Shown one piece after another: positions 1,689-11,463 of a stretch of DNA of 40,210 nucleotides. The position numbers were made by a program, and so were the translations under genes. The stretch is from a bacterium (GTDB lineage Bacteria; Pseudomonadota; Alphaproteobacteria; Rhizobiales; Aestuariivirgaceae), in NCBI GenBank assembly GCA_022842165.1, contig JALHQC010000040.1, positions 1 through 40,210 of the forward strand, given 5' to 3'. Under the pieces are notes generated by a model. The model worked only from the letters and a program-made list of their open reading frames with translations. It made no database searches and was not told the DNA's origin. The number at the start of each line of letters is the position of its first letter. Within the stretch, counting starts at the first letter, position 1.

Positions 1689-1712
1689 GCAGACGGTCGC
1701 TACTTTGTCTGC
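1689..1712. terminator. Possible shared hairpin between convergent purH and parB
   Basis: GCAGAC (1689-1694) and GTCTGC (1707-1712) form a 6-bp inverted repeat with a 12-nt loop, in the 15-bp gap between the purH and parB stops and reaching into the parB 3' end. There is no clear T-run on either side. It may reduce read-through in both directions, but a chance repeat of this size is quite possible. Confidence 0.2.
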
Positions 1713-2566
1713 AGCCTGGCGCAGATATCCTCGAGCTGGTCGAGCGTCTTGTAGCTGATCGTCAGGGTTCCGCCGGCATCGCCCCGATGCGCGATTTCGA
1801 CCTTGAGGCCGATCGCTTCAGAAACGATTTTTTCGAGCGCCTTGGTGTCGGCATCCTTTTCCGGCCTGGCCTTTGGCTTGCGGTTGGGTGCGGCATCCCG
1901 CGCCAGACCCTCGGCCTCGCGCACCGACAGGCCGAGCTTGATGATCTGGTCCGCCAGTTCCGCAGGCGAATCGGTCGCCACCAGGGCGCGGGCGTGCCCG
2001 GCGGTCAGGTTGCCCTGCTCGATCTGCTGGCGCACCGTCTCCGGCAGATTGAGAAGGCGGAGCGTGTTGGCGATGTGGCTGCGGCTCTTGCCGATCGATT
2101 CGGCCAGCTGCTGCTGGGTATAGTTGAACTGTTCCAGCAACAGGCCATAGGCCCGTGCTTCCTCGAGGGGATTGAGGTCCGAGCGCTGGATATTCTCGAT
2201 CAAGGCAATTTCCAGCGCCTCGCCGTCGGAAAGTTCGCGGATCAGCACCGGCACATCGTGAATCCCGGCCCGCTGGGCAGCGCGCCACCGCCGTTCACCC
2301 GCGACGATCTCGTATTCGCCCTGCGGCATGGGCCGCACCACGATCGGCTGCAGGAGGCCCTTGTCGCTGATCGACTTGGCCAGGTCGTCGAGATCGGCTT
2401 CGGCGAAATACTTGCGCGGATTATTGGGGCTGGCCTTGAGCATCTCGATCGGCATATGGCGCAGCGTGCGCACATCCTGAACGATTGCGTCCTCGCTGGT
2501 ATCGTCGCCCATCAGGGCGGCCAGACCGCGTCCCAGGCGTTTCTTCGGGGCCTGCATCATGTCCAT
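1700..2566 (-). CDS. parB: Chromosome-partitioning protein ParB
   Basis: ParB is a CTP-dependent clamp that loads at parS, spreads along the DNA and recruits ParA and SMC for origin segregation. The 288-residue protein opens with a basic KRLGRGLAALMG motif (9-20), typical of the ParA-stimulating tail. The CTP-binding core has PNNPRKYF (47-54), GERRWRA (90-96) and ENIQRSDL (124-131). A helix-turn-helix for parS recognition spans about 148-170, and a C-terminal dimerisation segment follows. It lies 57 bp downstream of parA on the same strand. Two parS-like sites are at 4023-4038 and 5994-6009. ATG codons at residues 3 and 4 are alternative starts. The overall call is very secure. Confidence 0.97.
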   Translation of the reverse strand: MDMMQAPKKRLGRGLAALMGDDTSEDAIVQDVRTLRHMPIEMLKASPNNPRKYFAEADLDDLAKSISDKGLLQPIVVRPMPQGEYEIVAGERRWRAAQRAGIHDVPVLIRELSDGEALEIALIENIQRSDLNPLEEARAYGLLLEQFNYTQQQLAESIGKSRSHIANTLRLLNLPETVRQQIEQGNLTAGHARALVATDSPAELADQIIKLGLSVREAEGLARDAAPNRKPKARPEKDADTKALEKIVSEAIGLKVEIAHRGDAGGTLTISYKTLDQLEDICARLQTK

Positions 2567-2623: not shown

Positions 2624-3460
2624 TCAGGCAGCGCGGAGTTCGCGCTCGCGGCGGATCACTTCCGACGCCAGGCGGATATAGGCCTGCGAACCCACACAGG
2701 CATTATCATAAAGCAATACCGGCTTGCCATAGGACGGCGCCTCCGAGACGCGTACGTTCCGTGGTATGACCGTCTGGTAGACCTTGTCTCCCAGCACGCT
2801 GCGAACGTCTTCAGCCACCTGCTCCGACAGATTGTTGCGGCGGTCGAACATGGTGAGCACCACACCCTGAATGGTCAGCCGCGGGTTGAGGCTGGCCTTC
2901 ACCCGCTCCACCGTCTTGATCAGCTGGCTCAATCCCTCGAGCGCGAAGAACTCGCATTGCAGCGGCACCAGAATGGCATCGGCGGCCGACAGGGCATTGA
3001 TCGTGAGGAGGTTGAGGGAGGGAGGGCAATCGACCAGCACATAGCTGTAGCTGCGGTTGGGGTCGGCCTTCTTCACCAGCGCGGCAATGGCATCGGCCAG
3101 CCGGTAGGTCTTGCGGTCGATATCCGCCAGTTCAAGCTCGGCTCCCAGGAGATCCATGGTCGACGGCGCGCAATGCAGGCGCGGAATGCCGGATTCGACG
3201 ATCACGTCCTTCAGCGAGGCCTCTCCCATCAGCATGTGATAGGTCGAGCGCTGCCCGCTGCGCCGCGGAACGCCGATGCCGGTACTGGCATTGCCCTGGG
3301 GATCGAGGTCGACGATCAGCACGGTTTCCCCGACGGCGGCCAGCGCGGTGCCAAGATTGATGGCGGTGGTCGTCTTGCCAACGCCGCCCTTCTGGTTGGC
3401 CACCGCGAGGATGCGGGGCAGGGCCGGCGAAATTGGGGCCGAAGTGGGCAGATCAGACAC
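2624..3460 (-). CDS. parA: Chromosome-partitioning ATPase ParA
   Basis: ParA is a deviant-Walker ATPase that binds nucleoid DNA and pulls ParB-parS complexes, moving sister origins to the poles. The 278-residue protein carries the deviant Walker A KGGVGKTT at 24-31 and the switch motif DLDPQG at 51-56, with no N-terminal DNA-binding extension, so it is of the chromosomal (Soj-like) type. It begins with GTG at 3460, overlapping the end of rsmG by 8 bp. An AGAGG purine stretch six bases upstream supports that start and no nearby ATG would keep the Walker motif. The order rsmG-parA-parB is the classic origin-proximal arrangement. Confidence 0.97.
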   Translation of the reverse strand: MSDLPTSAPISPALPRILAVANQKGGVGKTTTAINLGTALAAVGETVLIVDLDPQGNASTGIGVPRRSGQRSTYHMLMGEASLKDVIVESGIPRLHCAPSTMDLLGAELELADIDRKTYRLADAIAALVKKADPNRSYSYVLVDCPPSLNLLTINALSAADAILVPLQCEFFALEGLSQLIKTVERVKASLNPRLTIQGVVLTMFDRRNNLSEQVAEDVRSVLGDKVYQTVIPRNVRVSEAPSYGKPVLLYDNACVGSQAYIRLASEVIRRERELRAA

Positions 3461-4079
3461 GTTTGGCCTCTTTCACTTCGAGTATGACGCCACGAGAATC
3501 ACAGATGCTCGGATGTCTTGAAACAGTGAGTTTCCAATATTTGGTAGCTTCGGTCAATTCAAGCTCCACATCTTGCCCCTTGTGGAAAAGGCCAGTTGCA
3601 CCCCTGGCGAGAAATGGCTCGGCATAATCCAGGAGCAGCGGCAAAGGCGCCAGCGCCCGCGCGACGACGCATTGAACTGCCGGAAGCTCTGCCGCGTCCC
3701 GCAGGGCCTCGAGGCGGTGATTGTGAACGGTGGCTCTGGCGCCCGTCTTGCGGATGGCCTCGCGCAGGAAGGCGGCCTTCTTGGCGTTGCTTTCGTAGAG
3801 ATGGGCTTCGAGATTTCCGGCAATGGCAATGACAAGGCCCGGTATTCCAGCGCCGGAACCCAGTTCCGCGATGACCCGCGCCGCGGCGGGAAGCAGCGGC
3901 AGGAGCTGTACCGCATCGAGGATATGCCGGCTCCACACATGGCCCACGGTCGAAGACCCGATCAGGTTGATGCGCTGCTGCCAGTGAAGCAGCGTATCGA
4001 CATAGATCTGCAGGCGTTCCAGTGATTCACGTGAAACATCAAAGTTGCGGAGCAGGAAGGCTGGGTCTTCGCTGTTCAT
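3453..4079 (-). CDS. rsmG: 16S rRNA (guanine-527 N7) methyltransferase RsmG
   Basis: RsmG (GidB) methylates N7 of G527 in 16S rRNA using SAM. Loss of the enzyme in other bacteria gives low-level streptomycin resistance. The 208-residue length is normal. The SAM-binding loop reads ELGSGAGIPG at 72-81. The N-terminus encodes DVSRES (14-19), and the DNA behind these codons is a near-perfect parS site (4023-4038), so this stretch appears to be both coding and centromeric. The gene starts 3 bp after the mnmG stop and overlaps parA by 8 bp, consistent with a mnmG-rsmG-parA-parB transcript. Confidence 0.96.
   Translation of the reverse strand: MNSEDPAFLLRNFDVSRESLERLQIYVDTLLHWQQRINLIGSSTVGHVWSRHILDAVQLLPLLPAAARVIAELGSGAGIPGLVIAIAGNLEAHLYESNAKKAAFLREAIRKTGARATVHNHRLEALRDAAELPAVQCVVARALAPLPLLLDYAEPFLARGATGLFHKGQDVELELTEATKYWKLTVSRHPSICDSRGVILEVKEAKRV
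4023..4038. other. parS-like ParB-binding site inside rsmG
   Basis: The sequence TGATTCACGTGAAACA matches the widely conserved parS 16-mer TGTTTCACGTGAAACA at 15 of 16 positions. The single mismatch is at position 3. It lies in codons for DVSRES near the RsmG N-terminus, less than 2.5 kb from parB. Coding-region parS sites near the origin are known in other bacteria. Binding here is inferred from the match only. Confidence 0.85.
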
Positions 4080-4082
4080 ATC

Positions 4083-5948
4083 TCAGGCTGCGGAACGCCG
4101 GTCACGCCGCCTGATATGGCCGAGGATGACGGCCAGTGCCACCGGCGTCATGCCATCGATGCGCGAAGCTTGGCCGAGCGTTGCAGGCCTCACCCTGTCG
4201 AGCTTCTGGCGGAGTTCCGCCGAGAGGCTTGGCATGGCGGCATAGTCGAGCCCTTCAGGAAGCGTCAGCTGGTCTTCCTTCCGCAGCACTTCGATCTCTG
4301 CCCTCTGGCGGCCGATGTAGCCCGAATAGAGCGCTTCGGCTTCAAGCGCCTCCACCACGTCGCCGGAAAGACCGCGTAACCCCGGCCAGATACGGCAGAC
4401 GCCCTCGAACCCCACCTCCGGCATGGCCATCAATTCCAGCGCGCTGCGCCGCAGCCCGTCCTGGTTGACTTTGAGCCCGGCCTTGAGGGCCTCGGACGAT
4501 GTCAGGCCAAGGCGCCTGGCCTCGGCCATGCCAGCCTCGATCCGCTGCTGCCGCCCGGCAAAGGAGGCCGCTCGCTGCACGCCTGCGATGCCGAGTGACA
4601 GGGCAAGCGGCGTCAGCCGGATATCGGCATTGTCGGCGCGCAGCGACAGCCGGTACTCGGCGCGCGAGGTGAACATCCGGTAGGGCTCGGTGACGCCCTT
4701 GGTAACGAGATCATCGATCATGACGCCAATATAGGCCTGGGCACGATCAACTATGATGGCGTCCTGCTGTCCGGCCTTGCGAGCGGCGTTCAGGCCGGCC
4801 ACCAAGCCCTGTGCCGCAGCCTCTTCATAGCCGGTCGTCCCGTTGATCTGACCGGCGAGGAACAGATGGGGCAGCCGCTTCACTTCGAGGCTGAGGTCAA
4901 GCTCGCGCGGATCGACATAGTCATACTCGATCGCATAGCCCCAGCGCTTCACGGCAACGTTTTCAAGACCCGGGATGGAATGAATGAAGGCATCCTGAAC
5001 ATCCTCGGGAAGGGATGTCGAAATGCCATTGGGATAGACCGTGTCATCGTCAAGCCCCTCGGGCTCGAGGAAGATCTGGTGGCTGTCCTTGTCGCTGAAC
5101 CGCTGCACCTTGTCCTCGATCGACGGACAGTAGCGCGGCCCGACGCCCTCGATCTGACCTGAATACATTGGAGACCGGTGGATATTGTCGCGGATGATCT
5201 GGTGGCTCGCCGCCGTCGTGTGGCTGATGAAACACGATACCTGGGGCGTAACGATTGCCTGGGTGAGGAACGAGAACGGAACTGGCTGTTCATCGCCCCT
5301 CTGCTCCTCCAGCCGGTGCCAAGCAATCGTCCGGCCATCGAGGCGGGCAGGTGTGCCGGTTTTCAACCGTCCAAGCTGCAGGCCCGCAGCAGCAAGCTGT
5401 GCCGAGAAACCCTGCGATGGCGCCTCGCCGTGCCGGCCCGCCGGAATTCGCTTCTCGCCAATGTGAATCAAGCCATTGAGAAACGTGCCCGTGGTCAGGA
5501 CGGCGCTGCGGCAGGAGAATTCGCGACCATCCTCGCAGACGACGCCCGCCACCGCACCGTCGCGCAGGATGAAGCCGCAGGCTGACGCTTCGAGGATATG
5601 AAGATTGTCCTGCTCACGCATCACGCGCTGCATGGCCTCGCGATAGAGCTTTCGGTCAGCTTGCGCGCGCGGCCCTCGCACGGCCGGGCCTTTTGACCTG
5701 TTGAGAAGCCGGAACTGAATTCCCGCCGCGTCGGCGACACGCCCCATAACGCCATCCAGCGCATCGATCTCGCGTACGAGATGACCCTTGCCGACGCCGC
5801 CGATCGCTGGATTGCACGACATCTCGCCAATCGTTCCGGCCTTGTGTGTGAGCAAGGCGGTGCGCGCGCCGCTGCGGGCAGCGGCACTTGCAGCTTCAGT
5901 TCCGGCGTGGCCGCCGCCAATGACGATGACATCGTAGTTCGTTGACAT
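4083..5948 (-). CDS. mnmG: tRNA uridine-34 carboxymethylaminomethyl enzyme MnmG
   Basis: MnmG (GidA) is the FAD-dependent partner of MnmE. The complex installs the (carboxymethyl)aminomethyl group on wobble U34 of several tRNAs, using methylene-THF. The 621-residue length is normal. The N-terminal Rossmann dinucleotide motif is [11 protein letters not shown] (from residue 10), followed by CNPAIGG and the family signature region [11 protein letters not shown]. The C-terminal helical domain for MnmE and tRNA binding is intact. The gene is 66 bp downstream of mnmE, with a parS-like site in the gap, and 3 bp upstream of rsmG. Confidence 0.97.
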
Positions 5949-5993: not shown

Positions 5994-6009
5994 CGTTTCA
6001 CGTGAAACA
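5994..6009. other. parS-like ParB-binding site between mnmE and mnmG
   Basis: CGTTTCACGTGAAACA matches the conserved parS 16-mer at 15 of 16 positions, and its 14-bp core GTTTCACGTGAAAC (5995-6008) is a perfect palindrome. It sits in the 66-bp mnmE-mnmG gap, about 4.4 kb from the putative oriC and about 3 kb from parAB. This is the best parS match in the window. Confidence 0.92.
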
Positions 6010-6014
6010 GCGTT

Positions 6015-7352
6015 TCATTTTCCAATGCAGAACTTGGCGAAGATGGCGCCCAGCCATTCTTCAACTTCGGTACGGCCGGTAATACGCCCCACTGCTTCCG
6101 CCGCCCTTCGAATGTCCTCGGCTTTCATTTCGAGTCCGCTCAGATCATGCACCAGTGAATCGTTCAGCCTACGAATCGATTGCTGCGTTGCCTCTTTCTG
6201 CCGGGCGGACACGATCGTGGCATTGTCTTTCAGATGCAGCCGTCCCTGCAGAGTTTCCGTCAGTGCTGCAACCAGCTCCGGTATGCCCGCGCCAGATCGG
6301 GCTGAGACCGGTATGACTCTGGGTAAATCGTTTCGGATGAGTCCCGATCCTGGGCCGTAGAGGTCAGCCTTGCTCAGCACCACCACGTCAGGGTTACAGG
6401 AAGCGTCGTAGCGCTCGCTGCTTTCAATATCCGCTGAGCACACCCAGACAACAATATCGGCAGCTCGAAGCTCGTGCCTGGTCCTGTCGATTCCCTCGCG
6501 CTCGATCTCATCACCACCCTGTCTCAGCCCCGCCGTATCAGTCAGTATGACCGGGATGCCGTCCATATCGAGCATCACCTCAATGACATCGCGCGTGGTG
6601 CCAGGAATGGCCGAGACGATGGCCGCATTCCGCCGCGCCAGGGCATTGAGGAGGCTGGACTTGCCGGTATTGGGCAGGCCCGCCAGCACGACTTTCACGC
6701 CATCGCGGATGATTTCCGCCTTGCCAGCCGCAGCCACTGCCTTTTCCATTTCGTCGACCAGCGCCACGCATTGCGCATCGATCCGGCTGGCCGCAGCTGC
6801 GGCGACACCTTCTTCCTCGGAAAAATCGATCACCGCTTCAATATCGGCACGGATCTGCAGCAACCGTTCCCGCCACGAATCGAAAACCGAGCTGGCCTCT
6901 CCCAGCATGTGTGACATGGCCTGTCGCCGCTGGCGTTCTGTATTGGCGGCGAGAAGGTCACCCAGCCCCTCGGCTTCCACAAGATCCATCTTGCCATTCA
7001 TTACCGCGCGCCTGGTGAATTCGCCGGCTTCGGCTGGCCGTACCCCTGGAAATCGCGCGAGCACCTTGAAGACCGCGGCCAGTACCGCCCGGCTGCCGTG
7101 CACATGAAGTTCGGCGCAGTCTTCGCCCGTAAACGACCGGGGACCGGGAAGCCAGACGGCCACCGCCTCATCCAGGACATCGCCGGTTGCGGGATCGGTC
7201 AGCTTGCGGAGGCTGTAGTGTCGCGGGTCCGGAATGCTACCGGTCATACCAGCCAATACCGCGCCGGTGCCGGGGCCAGACAGCCTCACAAGCGCAATGG
7301 CCGCCCGCCCGCTGCCGGATGAAACGGCGTAGATCGTATCGTTAGCACTCAT
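6015..7352 (-). CDS. mnmE: tRNA modification GTPase MnmE
   Basis: MnmE (TrmE/ThdF) is the GTPase partner of MnmG in U34 modification of tRNA. The 445-residue protein has the N-terminal THF-binding domain (1 to about 120), a helical domain, and an inserted G domain with P-loop GLPNTGKS (225-232), GTTRD (251-255) and DTAG (272-275). It ends in CIGK, with the conserved Cys at 442. All key residues are present. The P-loop has Leu-Pro where many orthologues have different residues, but the GKS lysine and serine are kept. It lies 53 bp downstream of rho. Confidence 0.97.
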   Translation of the reverse strand: MSANDTIYAVSSGSGRAAIALVRLSGPGTGAVLAGMTGSIPDPRHYSLRKLTDPATGDVLDEAVAVWLPGPRSFTGEDCAELHVHGSRAVLAAVFKVLARFPGVRPAEAGEFTRRAVMNGKMDLVEAEGLGDLLAANTERQRRQAMSHMLGEASSVFDSWRERLLQIRADIEAVIDFSEEEGVAAAAASRIDAQCVALVDEMEKAVAAAGKAEIIRDGVKVVLAGLPNTGKSSLLNALARRNAAIVSAIPGTTRDVIEVMLDMDGIPVILTDTAGLRQGGDEIEREGIDRTRHELRAADIVVWVCSADIESSERYDASCNPDVVVLSKADLYGPGSGLIRNDLPRVIPVSARSGAGIPELVAALTETLQGRLHLKDNATIVSARQKEATQQSIRRLNDSLVHDLSGLEMKAEDIRRAAEAVGRITGRTEVEEWLGAIFAKFCIGK

Positions 7353-7405: not shown

Positions 7406-8689
7406 TCAGGCATTCATCGAGTCGAAGAAGTCGCTGTTACCCTTGGTCTGACGCAGCTTGTCGAGCAGGAACTCGACCGCGTCGACCGTTCCCATCGGAT
7501 TGAGGATGCGGCGCAGCACATAGGTCTTCTTGAGGAGATCGGGCTTCACCAAGAGTTCTTCCTTGCGGGTACCGGAGCGCAGGATGTCGATTGCCGGGAA
7601 CACCCGCTTGTCCGCAACCTTGCGGTCGAGGATGATTTCCGAATTGCCGGTGCCCTTGAACTCTTCGAAGATCACTTCGTCCATGCGGCTGCCAGTGTCG
7701 ATCAACGCGGTCGCGATGATCGTCAGCGAACCGCCTTCCTCGATATTGCGTGCCGCGCCGAAGAAGCGCTTCGGACGCTGCAGCGCATTGGCGTCCACGC
7801 CACCGGTCAGCACCTTTCCGGAAGACGGCACTACCGTATTATAGGCCCGCCCGAGGCGGGTGATCGAATCGAGCAGGATGACGACGTCGCGTCCGTGCTC
7901 CACCAGGCGCTTGGCCTTCTCGATCACCATTTCGGCAACCTGCACGTGGCGCGAGGCCGGCTCGTCGAATGTCGAGCTGATGACCTCGCCCTTCACCGAG
8001 CGCTGCATGTCGGTGACTTCCTCCGGTCGCTCGTCGATCAGCAGCACGATCAGGTAGCATTCCGGATGGTTCGCGGTGATGGAGTGGGCGATGTTCTGCA
8101 GGAGAACGGTCTTGCCGGTGCGCGGCGGGGCGACGATCAGCCCGCGCTGACCCTTGCCCAGCGGCGACACGATGTCGATCACGCGGGCCGAGAAATCCTT
8201 CCGCGTCGGATCGCCGGTTTCCATTTCGAGGCGTTCGTCCGGATAAAGCGGCGTCAGGTTGTCGAAGTGAACCTTGTGCCGGGTCTTTTCGGGATCTTCG
8301 AAATTGATCTTGTTGACCTTGACGAGGGCGAAATAGCGCTCCCCGTCCTTGGGGCTGCGGATCTGGCCCTCGACCGTATCGCCGGTCCTCAGCGTGAATT
8401 TCCGGATCTGGCTCGGACTGATGTAGATGTCGTCGGGTCCAGCCAGGTAGTTCGCATCGGGGTTGCGCAGGAAGCCGAAGCCATCCTGCAGCACTTCCAC
8501 CACCCCTTCGCCGATGATCTCGACATCGCGGATGGCGAGGTTCTTCAGAATGGCGAACAGCAGTTCCTGCTTGCGCAAGGCGCTCGCATTCTCGACTTCC
8601 AGTTCCTCGGCCAGCGACACCAGCTCGGCCGGCGTCTTCAATTTGAGGTCCTGAAGCTTGATTTCTTTCAGCTCGGCGATAGCAGTCAT
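7406..8689 (-). CDS. rho: Transcription termination factor Rho
   Basis: Rho is the hexameric RNA helicase that terminates untranslated transcripts. The 427-residue protein has the Rho N-terminal helical domain (about 9-50), an RNA-binding cold-shock-like domain (about 56-130, with GFGFLRNP at 70-77) and the ATPase core with Walker A APPRTGKT at 187-194. The primary-site and Q-loop regions appear intact. The gene follows hemJ after a 125-bp gap that may hold its own promoter or leader. Its position in the hemE-hemJ-rho-mnmE series is typical of alphaproteobacterial origins. Confidence 0.98.
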
Positions 8690-8814: not shown

Positions 8815-9255
8815 TCAAAACGGCTTCACGACCACGAAAATCACGATTCCCACGAGCAGCAGCGTGGGCACTTCGTTGAGGATGCGGAAGTAGCGCCCCG
8901 AGGCGCCTTCGCTGTCATTCCTGAACCTCACCGCATGACGCTCGAGCACGCCATGATAGATCACCATGCCGCCCACCGCCGCCAGCTTCAGCCACAGCCA
9001 CACCGGCAGCGGTCCATACCACCCACCAGCCCAGATAAGCCACAGGCCGGACAAGACAGCCACTAGCCCAGCCGGCCGCATGATGGCCTTGAGCAGGCGG
9101 TGTTCCATCACCTTGAAGGTCTCCGACAGTTCCGCCGACGCCCGGCCTTTCTCGGCATGATAGACGAAGAGCCGCGGCAGGTAGAACAATCCGGCCATCC
9201 ACGAAATGACTGCCAGGATATGGACCGTCTTCGCCCACAAATAGCTATCGCTCAT
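8815..9255 (-). CDS. hemJ: Protoporphyrinogen IX oxidase HemJ
   Basis: HemJ is the integral membrane enzyme that oxidises protoporphyrinogen IX to protoporphyrin IX in bacteria without HemG or HemY. The 146-residue protein has about four transmembrane segments. The N-terminal segment contains the conserved histidine in KTVHILAVISW (His12) and the family motif GLFYLPRLFVYH. A second conserved block is HRLLKAIMRPAG. The start overlaps the end of hemE by 11 bp, consistent with co-translation of two heme enzymes. The call rests on the family motifs and on the hemE context. Confidence 0.93.
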   Translation of the reverse strand: MSDSYLWAKTVHILAVISWMAGLFYLPRLFVYHAEKGRASAELSETFKVMEHRLLKAIMRPAGLVAVLSGLWLIWAGGWYGPLPVWLWLKLAAVGGMVIYHGVLERHAVRFRNDSEGASGRYFRILNEVPTLLLVGIVIFVVVKPF

Positions 9256-10294
9256 CGAACCGCCTCACGGCATCGACCACGGCGCCAACCACTGTGGGAT
9301 CGGTCCCCAGCCTGATGCCATGACCGAGATTGAAGATATGCCGCTGCCGGTCGACGCCGCCGCAGACACGCACGGCTTCCCGCCGTGCCACCTCCTCGCC
9401 CGCAAACAGTGCCACCGGATCGAGATTGCCCTGCACGACGATATCGCGGGGCAGAGACGCCAAGTCGGTTTCGGTCTCGATACCGATAGCGCTCGTTCCC
9501 GGTATGGCCGCGGCCCGGGGCTGGTTCAGCCCGATACCGCGCGCAAAGACGATGACCGGCAGGCCGGGATGCCGGGCCTTCACGCCCTCGACAATCGCGG
9601 CAATGGGTTTCAGGACGATATCGTCCAGCTCGCTCCCTACAAGATCCCCGGCCCAGGAGTCGAAAATCTGCACAACCTGCGCCCCGGCATCGGCCTGCGC
9701 CGAGAGATAATCGATCGATTCCGTCACCAGCCTTGCAATCAGCGCCATGAACCAGGGCTGGCGCTGATAGGCCGCCACTTTCGCCTGCACCCGGTCGGAA
9801 CTGCCGCCGGCGACCATGTAGCTCGCCACCGTCCACGGCGCCCCGCAGAAGCCGATCAGCGCCTTGTCCTGCGCCAGGAGCGACCGTGTCAGGCGGACCG
9901 TCTCGCAAACCTTCCTGACCTCGAAAGACCCCGCCACCGGTTTCAACGCATCGAGATCGTTCATGCTGCGCACTGTTCCCAGCACCGGACCCTCCCCTTC
10001 CTCAAACTTCAGGGGCAGGCCCATGGCGTGGGGAACGACCAGAATATCGGCAAACAGGATGGCGGCGTCAAAATCATAGCGCCGCAGCGGCTGGATCGTC
10101 ACCTCGGCTGCCAGTTCGGGATTGTAGCAGAGATTGACGAAAGACCCCGCCTTCTCCCGCACCGCCCGGTATTCTGGAAGATACCGCCCGGCCTGCCGCA
10201 TGAACCACATCGGGCGGCGAAGTGCTGGCCTCCGGTTCAGAACATCGAGGAGGGCATTGCGGGGTCCTTGGCCTTCCTCCCTACTATCTATCAT
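9245..10294 (-). CDS. hemE: Uroporphyrinogen decarboxylase HemE
   Basis: HemE decarboxylates uroporphyrinogen III to coproporphyrinogen III in heme synthesis. The signature PMWFMRQAGRYLPEY is at 28-42. The catalytic-aspartate region reads FADIL (Asp83), and a second signature is GFCGAPWTVASYM. I chose the ATG at 10294 (349 residues), which is normal for the family and has a purine-rich AAGAGA just upstream. A TTG at 10348 would add 18 residues with no family counterpart. The gene reads away from the putative origin and overlaps hemJ by 11 bp. Confidence 0.96.
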   Translation of the reverse strand: MIDSREEGQGPRNALLDVLNRRPALRRPMWFMRQAGRYLPEYRAVREKAGSFVNLCYNPELAAEVTIQPLRRYDFDAAILFADILVVPHAMGLPLKFEEGEGPVLGTVRSMNDLDALKPVAGSFEVRKVCETVRLTRSLLAQDKALIGFCGAPWTVASYMVAGGSSDRVQAKVAAYQRQPWFMALIARLVTESIDYLSAQADAGAQVVQIFDSWAGDLVGSELDDIVLKPIAAIVEGVKARHPGLPVIVFARGIGLNQPRAAAIPGTSAIGIETETDLASLPRDIVVQGNLDPVALFAGEEVARREAVRVCGGVDRQRHIFNLGHGIRLGTDPTVVGAVVDAVRRFDER

Positions 10295-10407
10295 TTTATC
10301 TCTTCTTTTATCTTTTGTTTGCGGCGCAAAAAGCGGGATACATCCCAATCCAATGGCCGTCCACAGCCGAGATGCCGAGGTTTCAGGTTAACGCGGTTGG
10401 TAGGCCA

Positions 10408-10422
10408 TTAACCATTTATTAA
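10408..10422. promoter_or_regulatory. CtrA-type binding site 1
   Basis: TTAA-CCATTTA-TTAA is an exact match to the CtrA consensus TTAA-N7-TTAA. In Caulobacter, CtrA bound at the origin represses replication initiation. The site begins 20 bp after a TTAAC half-site at 10388-10392. Confidence 0.75.
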
Positions 10423-10428
10423 GACACG

Positions 10429-10443
10429 TTAACAATCTCTTAA
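10429..10443. promoter_or_regulatory. CtrA-type binding site 2
   Basis: TTAA-CAATCTC-TTAA is a second exact TTAA-N7-TTAA match. It starts 21 bp after site 1, placing both sites on the same face of the helix. The pairing makes a chance occurrence in GC-rich DNA unlikely. Confidence 0.75.
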
Positions 10444-10471
10444 TACAAACCGGACAATGGCGCGGCAGGCT

Positions 10472-10476
10472 GACTC
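10472..10476. promoter_or_regulatory. GANTC (CcrM-type) methylation site in oriC
   Basis: GACTC matches GANTC, the target of the cell-cycle methyltransferase CcrM of alphaproteobacteria. It lies between the CtrA-type sites and the DnaA box. A single 5-bp motif is weak alone, so its relevance depends on the origin context. Confidence 0.45.
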
Positions 10477-10485
10477 AGGGACCGC

Positions 10486-10494
10486 TTTTCCACA
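10486..10494 (+). promoter_or_regulatory. DnaA box
   Basis: TTTTCCACA matches the DnaA-box consensus TTWTNCACA at all nine positions. It is the only full match in the hemE-ppsR gap. TGTGGAATA at 10528-10536, on the other strand, differs at one position. Confidence 0.75.
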
Positions 10495-10626
10495 TCGCGC
10501 CGCAATTCATTGCCCAACCCCTTCGGCTGTGGAATACCCGGAGCATAGAACCTGACAACCCGCCACGCCGCCGAAACGCTCCACAGTCGTCCACATTTTT
10601 TCAACAGGCCTTGCCACGTCCTCCAC

Positions 10627-11463
10627 ATGCCCGAGCCGGCCTCCCAGCGCTACTACCACCTTCACCTGGTCTCGGATGCGACCGGGGAGACGCTGAACAC
10701 CGTGGCGAAGGCCGCCGCCGCGCAATATTCCGGCTTCCGCCCCATCGCCCATATCTATGCGCTGGTCCGCACCCCCTCGCAACTCAACCGCGCCATGCGG
10801 GAAATCGAGCAGCAGCCCGGAATCGTCCTTTTCACCCTGATCAATCCCGACATCCGGAAACATCTCGAAGCGCATTGCGAAACGCTCGGCGTGCCCTGCG
10901 TCTCGATCCTCGATCCGGTGATCGCCATTCTGGCGCAATATCTGAACACCCAGTCGAGTCCCCAGGTCGGCGGCCAGCATGCGCTGAATTCAGACTACTT
11001 CAAGCGCATCGATGCCCTGAATTTCACGATGGCTCATGACGACGGCCAATCGGTCGAAGATATCGGGAAGTCGGATGTCATCATCCTGGGCGTCAGCCGC
11101 ACCTCCAAGACACCGACCTCGATCTACCTGGCCCAGCGCGGCGTTCGTACCGCCAATATTCCGATCGTTCCGGGCGTGCCGGTGCCGCTTGCCCTGTCGC
11201 ATGTCCGGGGGCCGCTGATCGTCGGGCTGATCGCCAGCGCCGAGCGGATCGCCCAGATCAGGCGCCACCGGCTGCTGACATTGAAAGAGAGCCGCTCGAC
11301 CGACTATATCGATCCGCGTCTTATCACCGATGAGCTGATGTTCATGAAGTCCCTGTGCTCGCAGCACGACTGGCCGATGATCGATGTCACCCGGCGGTCC
11401 GTCGAGGAGACGGCCGCCACGATTCTGAACCTGCTGGCCGAAAGCAAGCGGCAGGAGAATTGA
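10627..11463 (+). CDS. ppsR: Pyruvate,phosphate dikinase regulatory protein (DUF299)
   Basis: This family contains bifunctional kinase/phosphorylases that use ADP and Pi to inactivate and reactivate pyruvate phosphate dikinase or PEP synthetase. The 278-residue protein has the N-terminal HLVSDATGETL block and the family P-loop GVSRTSKT at 155-162. No dikinase gene is in the window, so the exact target (PpdK or PpsA) is not settled. The family member RP001 is the classic right-hand neighbour of alphaproteobacterial origins. No clear Shine-Dalgarno precedes the ATG, and the codon overlaps a TCCACA element of the origin. It is the first gene of the rightward arm. Confidence 0.93.
   Translation: MPEPASQRYYHLHLVSDATGETLNTVAKAAAAQYSGFRPIAHIYALVRTPSQLNRAMREIEQQPGIVLFTLINPDIRKHLEAHCETLGVPCVSILDPVIAILAQYLNTQSSPQVGGQHALNSDYFKRIDALNFTMAHDDGQSVEDIGKSDVIILGVSRTSKTPTSIYLAQRGVRTANIPIVPGVPVPLALSHVRGPLIVGLIASAERIAQIRRHRLLTLKESRSTDYIDPRLITDELMFMKSLCSQHDWPMIDVTRRSVEETAATILNLLAESKRQEN

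Follow-up and report, generated by a model that had tools for sequence, protein, structure and literature searches.

Described origins and the hemE-ppsR gap

The replication origin Cori of Caulobacter crescentus carries five CtrA sites across the origin, and steric exclusion of DnaA is the simplest mechanism discussed for them in the accessible sections of PMC1914354 and PMC4468827. Weakening of all five CtrA sites disturbed the laboratory cell cycle only mildly, although these sites did prove important when antibiotics were combined with nutrients (PMC4468827, in extract). The predicted origins of Rickettsia, Wolbachia, Ehrlichia and Anaplasma are adjacent to hemE, and for many of these origins in silico analysis predicts DnaA and CtrA boxes (PMC1914354, in extract). 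In Hyphomonas neptunium, CtrA is detected by ChIP-seq at a site adjoining the origin (PMC7200025, in extract); this stalked budding bacterium is placed in Caulobacterales (PMC8116508, in extract), not in Hyphomicrobiales. Sinorhizobium meliloti and Brucella abortus belong to the same order as the organism analysed here, yet CtrA of the former does not bind its origin (PMC4433202, in extract), and CtrA of the latter is reported, as cited in the accessible part of PMC2877005, not to bind the origin. According to the accessible part of a 2015 review, CtrA sites are not seen in origins beyond Caulobacter and possibly Rickettsia (PMC4468827). In the openly licensed literature searched, as far as its text is accessible, no paper was found that describes CtrA boxes in the origins of Hyphomicrobiales.

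The window, which means here the whole stretch of 40,210 nucleotides that was analysed, is one whole contig of a draft genome that comprises 117 contigs and 4.30 Mb. By PpsR identity, the nearest named records are a metagenome-assembled genome (MAG) with 86% and Aestuariivirga litoralis with 83%. Further MAGs come next, among them several labelled Aestuariivirga, and the organism is therefore most likely of the Aestuariivirga type within Hyphomicrobiales. The gene order is purH, parB, parA, rsmG, mnmG, mnmE, rho, hemJ, hemE, the gap, ppsR, maf, aroE, coaE, dnaQ and secB. The original prediction placed a Caulobacter-like replication origin with CtrA-type control in the gap between hemE and ppsR, whose product we take to be of the RP001 type. 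As described there, the genes on both sides read outward, and the gap is exactly 332 bp long. The coordinates are summarized in Table 1.

Table 1. Features of the hemE-ppsR gap and of its surroundings in the window
Feature	Position	Strand	Description
parB	1700..2566	-	ParB_N, HTH_ParB, ParB_C; TIGR00180
parA	2624..3460	-	AAA_31/CbiA; top NCBIfam match is ParA partition ATPase, under the cut-off of that model
rsmG (gidB)	3453..4079	-	TIGR00138, PF02527
parS-like site within rsmG	4023..4038	no strand	one mismatch to TGTTTCACGTGAAACA
mnmG (gidA)	4083..5948	-	TIGR00136, 814 bits
parS-like site, mnmG/mnmE interval	5994..6009	no strand	one mismatch to TGTTTCACGTGAAACA
mnmE	6015..7352	-	NF003661
rho	7406..8689	-	TIGR00767
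hemJ	8815..9255	-	TIGR00701
hemE	9245..10294	-	TIGR01464; left border of the gap, minus-strand ATG at 10294
AT/pyrimidine-rich tract across the hemE start	10280..10319	no strand	75% AT; block kept in the 10-row alignment
Gap (very probable oriC)	10295..10626	no strand	332 bp, divergent genes outward
TCCACA DnaA-box core	10360..10365	+	9/10 aligned rows
CtrA-type box 1, TTAA-N7-TTAA	10408..10422	no strand	exact match
CtrA-type box 2, TTAA-N7-TTAA	10429..10443	no strand	exact match; 21 bp from box 1 (start to start)
DnaA box TTTTCCACA	10486..10494	+	exact for TTWTNCACA, one mismatch to TTATCCACA; core at 10489
DnaA box TATTCCACA	10528..10536	-	one mismatch to TTWTNCACA; TGTGGA on + strand
TCCACA core, unconserved	10580..10585	+	2/10 aligned rows
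TCCACA core	10590..10595	+	8/10 aligned rows
TCCACA core over the ppsR start	10622..10627	+	ends on A of ATG; 1/10 aligned rows (window alone)
ppsR (PPDK/PEP synthase regulator, COG1806/DUF299)	10627..11463	+	NF003742, 328 bits; right border of the gap, ATG 10627

The gap was searched for TGATCCACA, which we take to be the letters of the Caulobacter G-box, and for WATCAANNNNTTR, presumably the IHF consensus. The former is absent from the gap at up to one mismatch, and the latter has no exact match in the gap, where two one-mismatch matches overlap box 2. The gap resembles Cori in its flanking genes, several DnaA boxes, TTAA-N7-TTAA sites and an AT-rich stretch (PMC1914354, PMC4468827, both in extract). 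It differs from Cori in that it has two CtrA boxes instead of five, in that it lacks the G-box, described with a T-to-G change (PMC4468827, in extract), and the exact IHF consensus, and in that its DnaA boxes are of the TTTTCCACA and GTCCACA types. The term Caulobacter-like should therefore be narrowed, and the gap is not of the Cori sub-type of freshwater Caulobacter, given the lack of a G-box within one mismatch and of an exact IHF consensus. The origins of Wolbachia, Ehrlichia and Anaplasma (Rickettsiales) differ from the gap in that COG1253 is located where the gap has ppsR. The gap fits hemE-COG1806 origins in its flanking genes, conserved DnaA boxes, AT excess and nearby parABS.

Location of the probable origin

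Five TCCACA sequences are located fully inside the gap (10360, 10489, 10528, 10580 and 10590), and a sixth one straddles the start of ppsR. The window contains 23 TCCACA sequences, of which 17 are distributed over the remaining 39.9 kb, and the gap is its densest 332-bp stretch. The original prediction listed a consensus DnaA box, a one-mismatch box and four further TCCACA cores. The box at 10486 is a consensus box when TTWTNCACA is used, but not when TTATCCACA is used; the one-mismatch box is present on the minus strand at 10528, and all four further cores (10360, 10580, 10590 and 10622) are present. The predicted AT/pyrimidine-rich flank is also present, and the AT content of the entire gap is 48%, as compared with approximately 38% for the window. 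The tract across the hemE start is a candidate for either an unwinding region or a hemE leader. The z value of the gap folded as single-stranded DNA is -1.8 and was given no weight. The one GANTC site of the gap (10472), which had been listed among the origin features, is present, but carries no weight and was dropped as such a feature, because the frequency of GANTC over the whole window (74 in 40.2 kb) predicts about one site in the gap and the site is not conserved in the aligned relatives. The 74 GANTC sites of the window compare with 210 in shuffles, which may count this palindrome on both strands, so that some depletion is possible.

The gap was aligned with those of nine near relatives (10 rows including the window). 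The conserved blocks are the pyrimidine-rich edge on the hemE side, the region from GGGATACA to CCCAATCC that runs into a TCCACA core, the CtrA-type boxes and the DnaA cores. The core of the DnaA box at 10486 is TCCACA in eight of the ten rows, with one shifted, and TGTGGA at 10528 is present in all ten. The GGGATACA-CCCAATCC block (10333-10358) adjoins the left DnaA core and shows few changes among the ten rows; the hemE reading frame is open through part of this block, up to a TTG at 10348. When 6-base words were counted blindly in the hemE gaps of 45 families of the order (57 gaps), TCCACA ranked first, with 107 occurrences as compared with 12.5 expected. This first rank of the DnaA-box core by enrichment supports the location of the origin. 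The parAB genes are located approximately 7-9 kb from the gap, and the two parS-like sites, identified with TGTTTCACGTGAAACA (presumably the parS consensus), are located 4.3 and 6.3 kb from it. Two such sites at up to three mismatches are found in none of 100 shuffles.

The original prediction proposed GC skew as a check, and this check does not bear it out. In the congener G018, no V-shaped profile is seen over 360 kb, and the GC skew (18 stretches) is nearly zero on both sides of the gap. When nine breakpoints were tried in a word-polarity scan of this genome, the one at the gap gave the lowest mean z2. The octamer GGGNAGGG, which we take to be the E. coli KOPS (FtsK-type), is distributed 10:10 to the left and 24:14 to the right of the gap in G018, which is a weak polarity. 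The congener G028 is assembled into two large contigs (C1 and C2). Its GC skew (61 stretches) is positive in 38 of the 40 stretches on C1 and negative in all 21 on C2, and does not change sign across hemE. It also keeps its sign at C1 ~830 kb, the presumed terminus, where GGGNAGGG flips.

The polarity of GGGNAGGG was counted in the fetched stretches of G028. Within ~400-430 kb of C1 ~830 kb, the counts are 28:0 in one direction and 0:31 in the other, and this flip resembles that of a terminus. Beside hemE, they are 16:3 on one 200-kb side and 5:6 on the other, followed by 12:26 beyond. Octamers trained near the terminus give values of 0.61 and 0.51, and then 0.44, in held-out stretches around hemE. 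If C2 is reversed before C1, the two arms from the terminus to hemE would be 1.636 and 1.653 Mb long, the joining and the orientation of the contigs being presumed. Whichever way C2 is oriented, the polarity flip coincides with hemE or lies no more than 200 kb away, the resolution being ~200 kb. This result supports an origin near hemE at coarse resolution. The hemE gap of G028 itself contains neither an exact CtrA box nor ppsR. A dif-like site, searched for by pattern, is not found in any of the three genomes searched.

The assignment of oriC to the gap, which we regard as very probable, is supported by the synteny, the parS-like sites, the conserved DnaA boxes and the polarity of the FtsK-type octamer in one congener.

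CtrA-type boxes in the gap, in the genus and across the order

The two exact TTAA-N7-TTAA sites that had been noticed in the gap are the sole two of the window, and none of 100 shuffles contains any. A spacing of 7 bases between half-sites is that of CtrA (PMC1914354, in extract). The pair occupies the central, AT-rich part of the gap (65% AT), with the left DnaA box on one side and the right DnaA cluster on the other. The genome contains 32 TTAA-N7-TTAA sites in 4.3 Mb, as compared with 11 for the reversed pattern, and only the two in the gap are within 100 bp of each other.

Among the ten aligned rows, both boxes are exact in seven and at least one is exact in all ten. The left and right halves are kept in ten and eight rows respectively for box 1, and in nine and ten rows for box 2. 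All 11 near genomes, including that of the window, have at least one box and eight have two; their 19 sites compare with 0.035 expected from shuffles, with the reservation that these genomes share ancestry and the rows are not independent. A hemE match is present in 36 of the 37 genomes of the genus, and 29 of the 30 hemE loci that were fetched are usable (L168 has no usable gap). Among the 18 deeper congeners, eight have a box and ten have none, with ten sites in total as compared with 0.27 expected. The ppsR gene is absent beside hemE in 16 of the 29 usable loci, where a maf match is located ~270-360 bp from hemE instead. Eight of these 16 loci carry a box, at positions unlike those of the near genomes, which shows that the boxes are independent of ppsR. 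In 22 of the 37 congeneric genomes, no ppsR match was obtained.

No enrichment is seen beyond the genus in 66 gaps from named-record PpsR loci, many of which belong to Hyphomicrobium, Sneathiella, Parvibaculum and their relatives (three sites at spacer 7 and zero to five at other spacers), and their flanks (820 kb, mostly genes) contain one site at spacer 7 with no peak. A hemE search across 150 genomes of the order gave matches in 147, and 60 stretches beside hemE, hand-chosen with one or more per family, were fetched. The order sample consists of 57 gaps from 45 families; the pair from the own family of the window was kept apart, and one gap shorter than 200 bp (L279) was left out, being excluded from the shuffle test but included in the spacer counts. 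This sample contains 25 TTAA-N7-TTAA sites, as compared with zero to six at each of spacers 0-6 and 8-20 (mean 2.1). First-order Markov shuffles give 1.42 sites at spacer 7 and never more than 7 in any of 300 rounds, and 18 of the 45 families have at least one box, as compared with 1.3 expected. In the same sample, GTTAAC occurs 31 times as compared with 3.8 expected, and ranks after TCCACA and five more DnaA-box words. This palindrome is the CtrA half-site plus flanking G and C. Boxes across the order are unexpected because of the results for S. meliloti and B. abortus. In the other genus of the family of the window, neither of two gaps has a box. In one locus of a different family (L313, family f44), a TTAA-N7-TTAA pair at gap positions 56 and 77 repeats the 21-bp offset of the window.

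Within the genus, enrichment of the box is also seen across whole genomes. In G018, 360 kb contain five sites at spacer 7 and at most two at any other spacer; in G028, 1.64 Mb contain 15 at spacer 7 and at most ten at any other (ten at spacer 6). Part of the order-wide excess could therefore be a general property of regulatory DNA, the baseline being the other spacers and the shuffles. In a PpsR tree of 86 rows, 20 of them with a box, the state changes at least ten times, although this tree is a quick one with long branches, and the number of changes cannot separate gain from loss. Each row is a locus in which both genes are present and PpsR measures 200 amino acids or more; loci repeating L032-L040 were left out, as were the duplicates L041 and L089 and further loci that fail these conditions, including the box-bearing L101.

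Proposed role of the boxes

The genome encodes 14 Trans_reg_C matches, of which that at C26:14536 is CtrA (NF045991, 425 bits against a cut-off of 350); its best PDB match is 4qpj, with a chain named CtrA. A ChpT-type HPTransfase domain is encoded at C26:17203, approximately 2.4 kb from the ctrA gene. GcrA and a RAMA domain, which is found at the C-terminus of CcrM, are also encoded. The dnaA gene is located on a different contig from the gap. The surroundings of 15 of the 32 genomic sites were fetched, and six neighbouring proteins were picked by eye. Five of them have a Pfam match (type IV prepilin peptidase, TadE/G-like, receiver-only response regulator, Hpt and divergent polysaccharide deacetylase), and the sixth has none. 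The Caulobacter CtrA regulon includes proteins of the prepilin peptidase, Tad and receiver kinds. The predicted CtrA-type control is supported only at the level of sequence, because the tandem boxes are kept in near relatives, CtrA and a ChpT-type protein are encoded, and spacer 7 is enriched across the order.

We consider it likely that the gap is an origin at which DnaA opens the DNA and phosphorylated CtrA (CtrA~P), bound to the tandem boxes, blocks initiation. DnaA would bind the conserved TCCACA boxes at 10360, 10486, 10528 and 10590 and, by analogy with known origins, would open AT-rich DNA, either in the tract on the hemE side (10280-10319) or in the AT-rich middle (10400-10450). CtrA would be phosphorylated and activated through a CckA-ChpT relay. 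CtrA~P dimers would then bind both boxes (10408-10443) on the same face of the helix, the 21-bp spacing corresponding to two turns. Bound CtrA~P would lie with the left DnaA box on one side and the right cluster on the other and, by analogy with Cori, would thereby block the assembly of DnaA, or the opening of the DNA, for as long as CtrA remains active. We infer the binding, the blocking, the relay and their timing at this gap. The boxes are probably functional at the origin, as judged from their sequence, and the chance that gating of initiation is their main role is about even. Their effect may also be conditional, because that of the Caulobacter sites is conditional.

The gap may be oriC with boxes that act only in transcription, such that CtrA regulates hemE, or ppsR, from a promoter within the origin. 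This possibility is doubtful. The box also adjoins ordinary genes elsewhere in the genome, it is located within ~110 bp of the hemE match in four of the 18 box-bearing families (f21, f27, f36 and f44), and a role confined to hemE is possible because hemE is present in all sampled loci. However, the box is located ~165-260 bp from hemE in ten of these 18 families, and the two boxes keep a constant 21-bp spacing between DnaA boxes. Regulation of ppsR alone is unlikely, because half of the 16 congener loci without adjacent ppsR have a box. It is improbable that CtrA does not act here and that the boxes instead serve another DNA-binding protein or belong, as AT-rich segments, to the unwinding element. 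The AT-rich surroundings of the pair would agree with this explanation, but spacer 7, which is the CtrA spacing (PMC1914354, in extract), is the only one enriched in the order sample, and AT-richness cannot give this selectivity.

It is most improbable that replication starts elsewhere and that the gap, close to the par locus, is instead a conserved region of divergent promoters. The lack of a GC-skew switch at the gap in either congener and the negative word-polarity scan of G018 are what such a region would give, whereas the first rank of the DnaA-box core in the hemE gaps of 45 families, the parS-like sites near the gap, and the switch of octamer polarity in G028, located at hemE or close to it, argue against it.

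The location of this origin is as predicted for an alphaproteobacterium, and the novelty lies in the CtrA boxes across the order. The excess of the 7-base spacer over 45 families, by 25 to 2, contradicts the statement of the 2015 review (PMC4468827, in extract) at the sequence level. Whether direct gating of the origin by CtrA is widespread in Hyphomicrobiales and repeatedly gained or lost, with S. meliloti and Brucella being atypical of the order, is in our estimate evenly balanced. The near relatives with two, one or no boxes form a natural series with which to test when and why CtrA governs initiation, and it becomes testable whether the CtrA switch gates replication in a far broader range of bacteria.
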